This document shows, one piece after another, positions 3,240 through 9,141 of a stretch of 50,432 bases of DNA; position 1 is the stretch's first letter, and each line of letters opens with the position of its first letter. A program made the position numbers and the translations under genes. Source of the DNA: [Collinsella] massiliensis. GTDB lineage: Bacteria > Actinomycetota > Coriobacteriia > Coriobacteriales > Coriobacteriaceae. A model generated the notes under the pieces. That model saw only the letters and a program-made list of their open reading frames with translations, was not told where the DNA came from and made no database searches. Location: contig CAPI01000087.1 in assembly GCA_000333815.1 (NCBI GenBank), positions 1-50,432 on the forward strand, read 5' to 3'.

Positions 3240-3731
3240 ATGTCCGATCTTGAAGCCAGGGCAGAGGAGCGTGCGCGCGAGCTCGTCGAGCGCTGCACGG
3301 CGCGCGGGGTGACCGTCGCCACGGCGGAATCGTGCACCGCGGGCATGGTGGCCTCGACCATCGCCGACATCCCCGGTGCGTCGTCGGTGCTGCGTGGCGG
3401 GGCCGTGACCTACGTCGACGAGGTGAAGCACGAGCTCATCGGCGTTGCCACCGAGACGCTCGAGCGGTTCACCGCCGTGTCGGATGTGTGCGCCGCCGAG
3501 ATGGCGCAGGGTGCGCGCGAGCGCTTCAAGGTGACGTGCGCGGTGAGCACGACGGGCTATGCGGGGCCGGACGGCGGTACCGCGGACGATCCGGTGGGCA
3601 CCGTGTACTTCGGCCTCGCGACGCCCGACGGGGTGCGCACCGACCGCCGGTGCTTCGAGGGCGGTCGCCAGGATGTGCGCCGCGCCGCGTGCTGCCACGC
3701 GCTCGAGTTGCTGCTCGACGCGATCGGATAA
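3240..3731 (+). CDS. pncC: Stand-alone CinA C-terminal domain, nicotinamide-nucleotide amidohydrolase
   Basis: The 163-residue protein is the CinA/PncC amidohydrolase domain without the N-terminal MoaB-like domain of full CinA. Visible signatures are Thr-Ala-Glu-Ser-Cys-Thr-Ala-Gly near residue 27, a Ser-Val-Leu-Arg-Gly-Gly-Ala segment, Thr-Gly-Tyr-Ala-Gly-Pro-Asp-Gly-Gly, and Pro-Val-Gly-Thr-Val-Tyr. The domain deamidates nicotinamide mononucleotide in NAD salvage. The position directly before recA is the classical cinA-recA neighbourhood. A separate recA promoter follows, so the two need not be co-regulated. Confidence 0.9.
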   Translation: MSDLEARAEERARELVERCTARGVTVATAESCTAGMVASTIADIPGASSVLRGGAVTYVDEVKHELIGVATETLERFTAVSDVCAAEMAQGARERFKVTCAVSTTGYAGPDGGTADDPVGTVYFGLATPDGVRTDRRCFEGGRQDVRRAACCHALELLLDAIG

Positions 3732-3892
3732 GGCGGTCGCTGTTTTGCGTGCGCATCGGGGAGCGCTTCGGCCTCTTGTCGGCCTCGCCTGCCGTGCATG
3801 ATGTGCTTGCGCTGGAGATTTCGCCCGGGTGGTTCGCACTGGTATGGGTTCCTTGACGCGATAAGGCTCCGTTTGCCCAGGATCGTGCCGGT

Positions 3893-3958
3893 GTGCCAGC
3901 CCCGTGCAAGGTTCGGGCAAGGTTGGTGCAAGGCTTGTGCCAGGTTCCTGTCAGGTCG
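3893..3958. repeat. Six-unit tandem repeat of 11 bp upstream of the recA promoter
   Basis: Six head-to-tail units of exactly 11 bp begin at 3893, 3904, 3915, 3926, 3937 and 3948. Four of them fit KGGCAAGG/GTGCMAGG followed by a pyrimidine-rich spacer, and the first and last are degenerate. The 309-bp gap between cinA (ends 3731) and recA (4041) contains this array and the recA promoter. I see no gene in it. The array ends 25 bp before the -35 hexamer. An 11-bp period places every unit on about the same face of the helix, as in direct-repeat sites for winged-helix activators, but no binding protein is known. Confidence 0.75.
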
Positions 3959-3983
3959 CCTGTGTATGATGCACGTAATCCGC

Positions 3984-4012
3984 TTGACGGCGAACAGCTG
4001 TTCGCGTATGAT
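3984..4012 (+). promoter_or_regulatory. recA promoter with embedded LexA (SOS) box
   Basis: The hexamers TTGACG (3984-3989) and TATGAT (4007-4012) are separated by 17 bp. The spacer contains a perfect Gram-positive-type SOS box, CGAAC-AGCT-GTTCG, at 3991-4004. LexA bound there would cover the space between -35 and -10. The lexA gene itself is in this window at 13596-14234. A ribosome-binding site GAGGAGG follows at about 4030-4035. Confidence 0.92.
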
Positions 4013-4040
4013 GGCAGCGGCAACCTAAGAGGAGGATTCC

Positions 4041-5156
4041 ATGGCGAAGAGCTCAGGCCCGGTCAAAACCATCCACGAACGCACCTATGGCGAGGAGCGC
4101 GATAAGATGATCGACGCCACGAAGGCGGAGATCGAGAAGAAGTTCGGCACCGGGTCCATCATGCGGTTCGGTGACGGCGGCCCGGAGATGGAGATCGAGG
4201 CCATCCCCACCGGCGCGCTCTCCCTCGATGCCGCGCTCGGCATCGGCGGCGTCCCGCGCGGGCGCATCATCGAGATCTACGGCCCCGAGTCCTCGGGCAA
4301 GACCACGCTCTCGCTTGAGATCCTTGCCGAGGCCCAGGCTGCGGGCGGCGTCGTGGCGTTCATCGACGCAGAGCACGCGCTCGACCCCGCCTACGCCGCG
4401 CGCATCGGCGTCGACATCGACGAGGTGCTCATCTCTCAGCCCGATACGGGCGAGCAGGCGCTCGAGATCTGCGACATGCTCGTGCGCTCCGGTGCCATCG
4501 ATGCCGTCGTGATCGACTCCGTCGCCGCGCTCGTCCCGCGCGCCGAGATCGAGGGCGAGATCGGCGATTCCTCCGTCGGCCTGCAGGCGCGCCTCATGAG
4601 CCAGGCGCTCCGCAAGCTCGCGGGCTCGCTCGCGAAGTCGAACACCACCTGCATCTTCATCAACCAGCTGCGCGAGAAGATCGGCGTCATGTTCGGCAAC
4701 CCCGAGACCACGACGGGCGGCCGCGCGCTCAAGTTCTTCTCGTCGGTCCGCATCGAGATCCGCCGCATCGAGAGCATCAAGGTCAAGGATGACATCGTCG
4801 GCAACCGCGTGCGCTGCAAGGTCGTCAAGAACAAGGTCGCGGCGCCGTTCAAGACCGCTGAGTTCGACATCATGTACGGCACGGGCATCTCGAAGGAGGG
4901 CTCGATTCTGGACATGGGCGTGGACTACGGTATCGTCACGAAGTCCGGTGCCTGGTATACGTACGATTCGGAGCGCTTGGGCCAGGGCCGCGAGGCGGCG
5001 AAGGAATTCCTCAAGATCCATCCCGAGCTGAGCGACGAGATCGAGCACAAGGTGCGCATCGCATGCGGCCTCGACTTTTCCGACGAGTCCACGGGGGATG
5101 CCGTGATCGTCGACGAGGACATTGACGCGGCCGATACCGCGTCCGCGCGTAGCTGA
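4041..5156 (+). CDS. recA: Recombinase RecA
   Basis: RecA forms filaments on single-stranded DNA, drives strand exchange, and stimulates LexA self-cleavage. The 371-residue product has the Walker A motif Gly-Pro-Glu-Ser-Ser-Gly-Lys-Thr at 81-88, the Asp-Ala-Glu-His-Ala-Leu-Asp segment, and the loop Asn-Gln-Leu-Arg-Glu-Lys-Ile-Gly. An acidic C-terminal tail follows. It is about 20 residues longer at the N-terminus than E. coli RecA, and no intein is present. It is transcribed from the SOS promoter just upstream and is followed 11 bp later by recX. Confidence 0.98.
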
Positions 5157-8796: not shown

Positions 8797-8820
8797 TTGT
8801 ACCATACACGCAGGAGAACC

Positions 8821-9141
8821 ATGGAATATCTCAAAGTCTCGAGCAAGTCTTCGCCCGCTTCCGTCGCGGGCGCCATCGCCGGCATGGTGAAGGACGGGGT
8901 TCCCGTCAACATGCAGTGCGTGGGCGCCGGCGCGGTCAACCAGGCCATCAAGGCGATGGCCATCGCGCGCGGGTTTCTCATCCCCACGGGGTTCGATATC
9001 TCCTGCTCTCCCACGTTCTCGGACATCCTCATCAACGGTGAGTCGCGCACGGCGATCCGCCTTGCGGTGCTCGTGCATGCCATCTCGGTGAACAGCATGG
9101 ATGTTCCCGAGTATTCCGGACACACGGTGGCGGTGCGATAA
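8821..9141 (+). CDS. spoVS: Stage V sporulation protein S (SpoVS family)
   Basis: The 106-residue protein is a typical SpoVS. It begins Met-Glu-Tyr-Leu-Lys-Val-Ser-Ser-Lys-Ser, has the central Gly-Ala-Gly-Ala-Val-Asn-Gln-Ala segment, and has a hydrophobic C-terminal half. The family has an Alba-like fold and is often found near rny in both spore-forming and non-spore-forming bacteria. It is known to affect sporulation and division in Bacillus. No sporulation gene is present nearby, so the name should not be read as evidence of sporulation. ATG 8821 follows an AGGAG box. miaB starts 1 bp after the stop. Confidence 0.93.
   Translation: MEYLKVSSKSSPASVAGAIAGMVKDGVPVNMQCVGAGAVNQAIKAMAIARGFLIPTGFDISCSPTFSDILINGESRTAIRLAVLVHAISVNSMDVPEYSGHTVAVR

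Follow-up and report, generated by a model that had tools for sequence, protein, structure and literature searches.

The recA locus

The window, i.e. the whole stretch of 50,432 bp that was analysed, belongs to a draft genome of 2.33 Mb in 135 contigs (G000). It contains the recA gene (371 aa, positions 4041..5156, plus strand), the named relatives of which are from Coriobacteriia, e.g. Collinsella sp. (85%) and Parafannyhessea umbonata (84%). The 5' neighbour of recA is a short ORF of 163 aa on the same strand (3240..3731), called cinA-like here because of its position and following an earlier reading of the sequence alone. Elsewhere in the window, the ORF at 8797-9141 encodes what looks to us like stage V sporulation protein S (SpoVS).

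The region between these two genes contains several candidate regulatory signals. An array of six 11-bp direct repeats (3893..3958, plus strand) ends 25 bp upstream of the -35 box of promoter P2, as the sequence-only reading had noted. P2 consists of TTGACG (3984-3989), a 17-bp spacer and TATGAT (4007-4012), and occupies positions 3984..4012 of the plus strand. The LexA (SOS) box CGAACAGCTGTTCG (3991..4004), listed as inverted repeat I2, lies within the P2 spacer. A LexA box was recognised by pattern in 98 of 100 recA upstream regions of related genomes (30/30 from the same family and 68/70 others).

The interval between the array and P2 holds an additional -10-like hexamer, TATGAT (3965..3970, plus strand), overlooked in the sequence-only reading. 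The last heptamer of the array, GTCAGGT (3950..3956, plus strand), is located exactly 8 bp upstream of this hexamer, in the place of a -35 box. These two elements form a candidate array-dependent promoter P1, with the LexA box approximately 14 bp downstream of its inferred start near 3977. Two metagenome-assembled genomes (loci L013, L014) have, directly upstream of the recA SOS promoter, the palindrome TTTTGACAG..CTGTCAAAA in the array's stead.

The array of 11-bp repeats

The units start at 3893, 3904, 3915, 3926, 3937 and 3948, so that the six units at exact 11-bp steps described earlier are indeed there. Set in the register that is shared with relatives, the six heptamers are GCCAGCC (3895), GCAAGGT (3906), GCAAGGT (3917), GCAAGGC (3928), GCCAGGT (3939) and GTCAGGT (3950). 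TRF reports period 11 at 3903-3947. The array is far beyond chance: 39 of 55 positions match at lag 11 over 3893-3958, against a mean of 21.2 and a maximum of 30 in the best 66-nt window of each of 2000 dinucleotide shuffles of the region 3701-4040. The next-best 66-nt stretch in the whole window has 28 matches (mean 14.2, sd 3.4).

Conservation in Coriobacteriia

Upstream regions of recA were compared in 30 genomes of the same family, including G000, and 70 other genomes of the class. Loci L171 and L176, with no LexA box recognised by pattern, were left out, and removal of near-duplicates reduced the remaining 98 loci to 90. The period is evident in this divergent set at lags 11 (z 14.0), 22 (z 8.4) and 33 (z 6.1), although z values in all sets are inflated by relatedness of the sequences. 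Dinucleotides were preserved in the shuffles of the region 3701-4040; all other shuffles preserve base composition alone. Lag 11 is the top lag in the range 5-20 in 46 of the 90 loci and is individually significant (p < 0.05) in 42 of them. The unit itself drifts between species (GCAAGGT, GTCAGAT, GTTAGAT, GTCGGAA, GGAAGAT), and the copy number varies. Retention of the period despite differences in sequence and copy number, which the sequence-only reading had named as the mark of a regulatory array, is thus strongly borne out by the 90 divergent loci.

At least two phased units are present in 55 of 76 loci of families f1 and f2 (mean 2.38 against 1.16 in shuffled sequences). An expectation-maximisation (EM) model was applied to these 76 loci, with a single 11-bp unit common to all and an unconstrained -10 box; it places TANNAT 8 bp downstream of the last heptamer. 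The log-likelihood is 534 for spacer 8 and at most 461 for the other spacers from 4 to 14; the assignment of TATGAT (3965..3970) as the -10 box of P1 follows this model. The LexA box lies at a different distance in family f3, where the 8-bp spacing is kept, as judged by eye, in GCTAGAT-N8-TATACT (L179) and GCTGGAT-N8-TATACT (L187). No array was observed at the examined loci of families f6, f11, f13 and f22 (L177, L178, L184-L186, L188), and most of the examined genomes of these families do carry BTAD proteins.

The control regions behave as follows. The cinA side yields z -0.4 at lag 11. Upstream regions of rny yield z -2.4 at lag 11, 4.6 at lag 22 and 5.3 at lag 5. The recA upstream regions from outside the class (n=65) yield z 2.4 at lag 11 and 5.8 at lag 12, so that shared sequence produces some periodicity outside the class as well.

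Other genes preceded by arrays

A sequence-only model of the array, R1, which represents 45 recA arrays out of the 56 selected, was run over 64 genomes of the family and 30 genomes of other families. We examined 50 non-recA loci among the matches listed for the former and 25 match loci for the latter. Matches with E of 0.1-1 include chance ones, and many matches among the examined loci of both runs have no gene assignment or lie inside ORFs. The exact pattern TGTCAGGT-N7-10-TATNAT was found in G000 at recA alone; it is too strict to define a regulon.

The genes downstream of the 50 loci are prmC (4), SpaA-type genes (4), yraN (3), a family of approximately 330 aa (12), and smaller groups and singletons; G000 contributes one locus each to the SpaA-type, YraN and 330-aa groups. 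In all three matched genomes of the family, comM (Mg_chelatase) and dprA come next after yraN. In other families, the arrays were found upstream of yraN-comM (G153, G079), rpsF-ssb-rpsR (G173, G175, G259) and SpaA-like genes (G239, G112, G237), and in G225 a DHH/RecJ-like gene is located further downstream. Most of the remaining loci of the 25 have no gene assignment.

ComEC is encoded in all 64 genomes of the family. Screening of 30 ComEC loci with 1500-bp flanks by R1 produced no matches, as the comEA promoter lies just beyond these flanks. At least three genomes (G008, G014, G022) have R1 matches at the comEA promoter of the comEA-comEC genes, where ComEA was identified by its SLBB and HHH domains. 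We collected comEA upstream regions from 20 loci, namely these three genomes and others picked for spread, and R1 again matched three of the 20. After two near-identical rows were dropped, leaving one row with an R1 match, the 18 upstream regions still show the period (lag 11, z 5.3) and contain 2.06 units on average against 1.19 +/- 0.09 in shuffled sequences. At least two phased units are present in 12 of the 18, and three units can be seen by eye in G000 (L300). No TANNAT was observed at 8 bp from the arrays in the examined comEA upstream regions.

One cis-element is common to recA, comEA-comEC, yraN-comM-dprA and rpsF-ssb, each in a subset of genomes. Among the steps of transformation, these genes cover DNA uptake, protection of single strands and recombination.

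Some R1 matches precede genes not known to be involved in transformation, such as prmC, topA and adhesin genes. Arrays are located directly upstream of prmC, encoding the release-factor methyltransferase, in four genomes (L230, L238, L243, L256). They also precede genes for SpaA/LPXTG pilin-like proteins or thioester adhesins, including one in G000 (L224, L229, L231, L260, L355, L379). R1-type arrays are found at the starts of genes of the 330-aa family (L200, L222, L237, L239, L241, L246, L253-L255, L259, L262, L263, L375). Members of this family have weak matches to AbiEi, the best with E 1e-7 (L254) and others with 0.004-0.02 or none. A link between DNA uptake and defence is therefore possible.

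Candidate regulator

The sequence-only reading had suggested an OmpR/SARP-like activator and a second input at recA in addition to LexA. The promoters and genomes considered here agree with this suggestion. SARP promoters have direct repeats spaced by 11 or 22 bp, the 3' repeat being located 8 bp from the -10 box, according to PMC10936776. The same spacing is seen at recA, both in the window and at lags 11 and 22 of the 90 loci, and so is the 8-bp distance in the recA promoters of families f1 and f2.

Each of the 64 genomes of the family encodes exactly one BTAD protein, of approximately 1000 aa, and at least one is present in 278 of 296 genomes of the class. In G000 the gene is located on contig C84. 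Its 1028-aa ORF has a P-loop at the N-terminus and a C-terminal winged helix followed by BTAD, the domain order of SARP regulators as far as profile scores and modelling indicate. The BTAD score is 22.8 bits (cut-off 22.1); the winged helix scores 20.7 bits, below the cut-off of 26.2. The predicted structure of the C-terminal part, based on 13 orthologs, has pLDDT 88.8, and its best structural matches are AfsR in the transcription complex (8k60/8hvr) and EmbR, with E of about 1e-8.

Several genomes with no recognised BTAD domain nevertheless encode an ortholog. Profile A2 finds it in G137, G173 and G246, where units are present upstream of recA, and in G258 with a weak recA array (E-values from 2e-20 to 9e-42). 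No ortholog was found by profile in G240, G174, G119 and G123.

R1 matches were observed upstream of the SARP gene itself in at least seven genomes (G049, G050, G051, G053, G054, G056, G057), and in every one of the seven the array is on the opposite strand. Reverse-oriented units can be seen just upstream of the ATPase-SARP gene in loci L195 and L233, L225, L257 and L265-L268. SARP upstream regions could be anchored in 10 of 20 cases, and G000 was added as the eleventh. R1 had no part in the choice of these 11 loci, and they show a weak excess: the numbers of units are 1.73 for the opposite strand and 1.82 for the sense strand, against 1.13 in shuffled sequences (lag 11, z 2.0). The association of the arrays with the SARP gene thus rests on the seven R1 matches. 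Taken together, the most likely regulator is this large single-copy protein with a P-loop ATPase part and a C-terminal SARP part.

Alternative explanations

One alternative is a PafBC-type operator, in which the last unit, N8 and TATGAT would form a RecA-NDp promoter with its -26 element, providing a LexA-independent damage input, and the upstream units would be extra copies. It was adopted as the first explanation because of the match GTCAG-N10-TATGAT at recA of the window (3950-3970), an instance of GTCRG-N10-TANNNT, which we take to be the PafBC promoter consensus. Of 69 recA upstream regions (L015-L083), 47 contain the same register, and the WYL genes of G000 are exactly two in number, adjacent to each other and overlapping. 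PafBC, too, acts by sigma adaptation, as stated in PMC11804915. However, the 47 loci, inspected by eye, contain a single element and no array. Moreover, recA upstream regions were compared for seven WYL-negative genomes, and six of these retain the arrays (G057, G153, G217, G248, G264, G304; not G301), and all six carry BTAD. The arrays are thus not confined to genomes with WYL genes of the pafBC kind, the genes that share them are those of DNA uptake, and they stand at the SARP gene as well. The PafBC explanation was dropped because arrays persist in WYL-less genomes and the shared targets are com genes, and we now regard it as unlikely.

Two observations on PafBC are independent of the arrays. 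The presence of GTCRG-N10-TANNNT upstream of recA in the 47 of 69 mostly actinobacterial loci is consistent with wide use of PafBC-type promoters. The overlapping WYL genes of G000 (contig C97; L001, L196) are candidate pafB and pafC genes, convergent with a helicase-like gene that presumably resembles dinG.

The second alternative is an operator of an OmpR/PhoP-type response regulator of phosphate or envelope stress, covering recA too. Regulators of this class are known for 11-bp direct repeats read by winged helices, and nine OmpR-type proteins above the cut-off are encoded in G000, any of which could use such repeats as well. However, no two-component or phosphate gene was found among the array-bearing genes that were identified, many loci being left with no gene assignment, and both the set of com genes and the upstream region of the SARP gene point elsewhere. 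This explanation appears slightly less plausible still. Finally, slippage at replication can create tandem repeats, and the copy number does differ between species. However, the sequence of the units changes, whereas their period, their position and the 8-bp spacing are retained across families, and arrays of this kind are found again at other orthologous promoters. This suggestion of the sequence-only reading, like a functionless chance repeat, is very improbable and, as the sole explanation, already refuted by the comparative data.

Proposed mechanism

The likely function of the repeats, in our opinion, is that of a cooperative operator of an activator-dependent recA promoter, belonging to a competence regulon run by the ATPase-SARP regulator, with recA also under LexA. 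Each 11-bp unit (a heptamer close to GTNAGRT and 4 bp) would accept one SARP winged-helix domain, and the protomers would stack along one face of the helix, tiling the array. The most downstream protomer, 8 bp from the -10 box, would take the role of a -35 box in holding sigma region 4, i.e. by sigma adaptation as solved for AfsR. RNA polymerase held at P1 by the SARP domains would then most probably provide more RecA during DNA uptake. By analogy with AfsR, the ATPase part suggests a switch gated by a ligand or NTP.

Since the same arrays precede DNA-uptake genes, competence appears more plausible than a further damage signal as the second input at recA. In such a regulon, comEA-comEC would serve uptake, and rpsF-ssb, yraN-comM-dprA and recA would serve the handling and recombination of incoming strands; surface and AbiEi-like genes would be included as well. 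As the LexA box is located just downstream of the P1 start, the SOS and competence inputs would meet at recA, and LexA may also block P1.

A wider generalisation is more tentative. It is conceivable that the order Coriobacteriales has a common competence program, in which one ATPase-SARP protein reads long phased arrays, feeds back on itself in reverse, joins SOS and competence at recA, and turns on AbiEi-like defence together with DNA uptake. If so, the cells would arm themselves while importing foreign DNA.

According to PMC12849477, little is known of how Actinomycetota control competence, and even in Micrococcus luteus the cascade is unidentified. In the open-access literature we found no description of such a regulator or of competence control in Coriobacteriia. 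A large SARP-type activator appears to switch on DNA-uptake genes in these mostly gut-dwelling actinobacteria. We offer a candidate regulator, a cis-code and a list of targets for a class with members in the human gut. If the prediction is true, Coriobacteriia are able to take up DNA on command, and induction of the regulator could make them transformable in the laboratory.

Comparison with known systems

Heptamer repeats of the ActII-ORF4/RedD type are characteristic of SARP-dependent promoters. The arrays resemble these promoters, including the afs box of AfsR, in having direct repeats at 11 or 22 bp, 8 bp to the -10 box and helical phasing, and the candidate regulator shares the fold of winged helix and BTAD. 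However, there are up to approximately seven units here and two there, and the unit GTNAGRT is different. In addition, the SARP domain is located at the C-terminus of an ATPase protein, and the targets include DNA-uptake genes rather than antibiotic clusters.

OmpR/PhoP operators also consist of 11-bp direct repeats, but no link to targets of two-component systems was found for the arrays considered here. PafBC/RecA-NDp promoters have an equally spaced element before the -10 box upstream of recA and likewise involve sigma adaptation. However, theirs is a single element, whereas the arrays persist in genomes with no WYL proteins.

The late competence genes of pneumococcus include comEA, comEC, dprA, ssbB and cinA-recA, as listed in PMC6560143, and the array-bearing gene set corresponds to this list. 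The streptococcal ComX regulon is similar in covering comEA, comEC, dprA, ssbB and the cinA-recA locus. However, ComX is an alternative sigma factor with its own promoter box, whereas in these actinobacteria the signal is an array of the activator type, located between cinA and recA.
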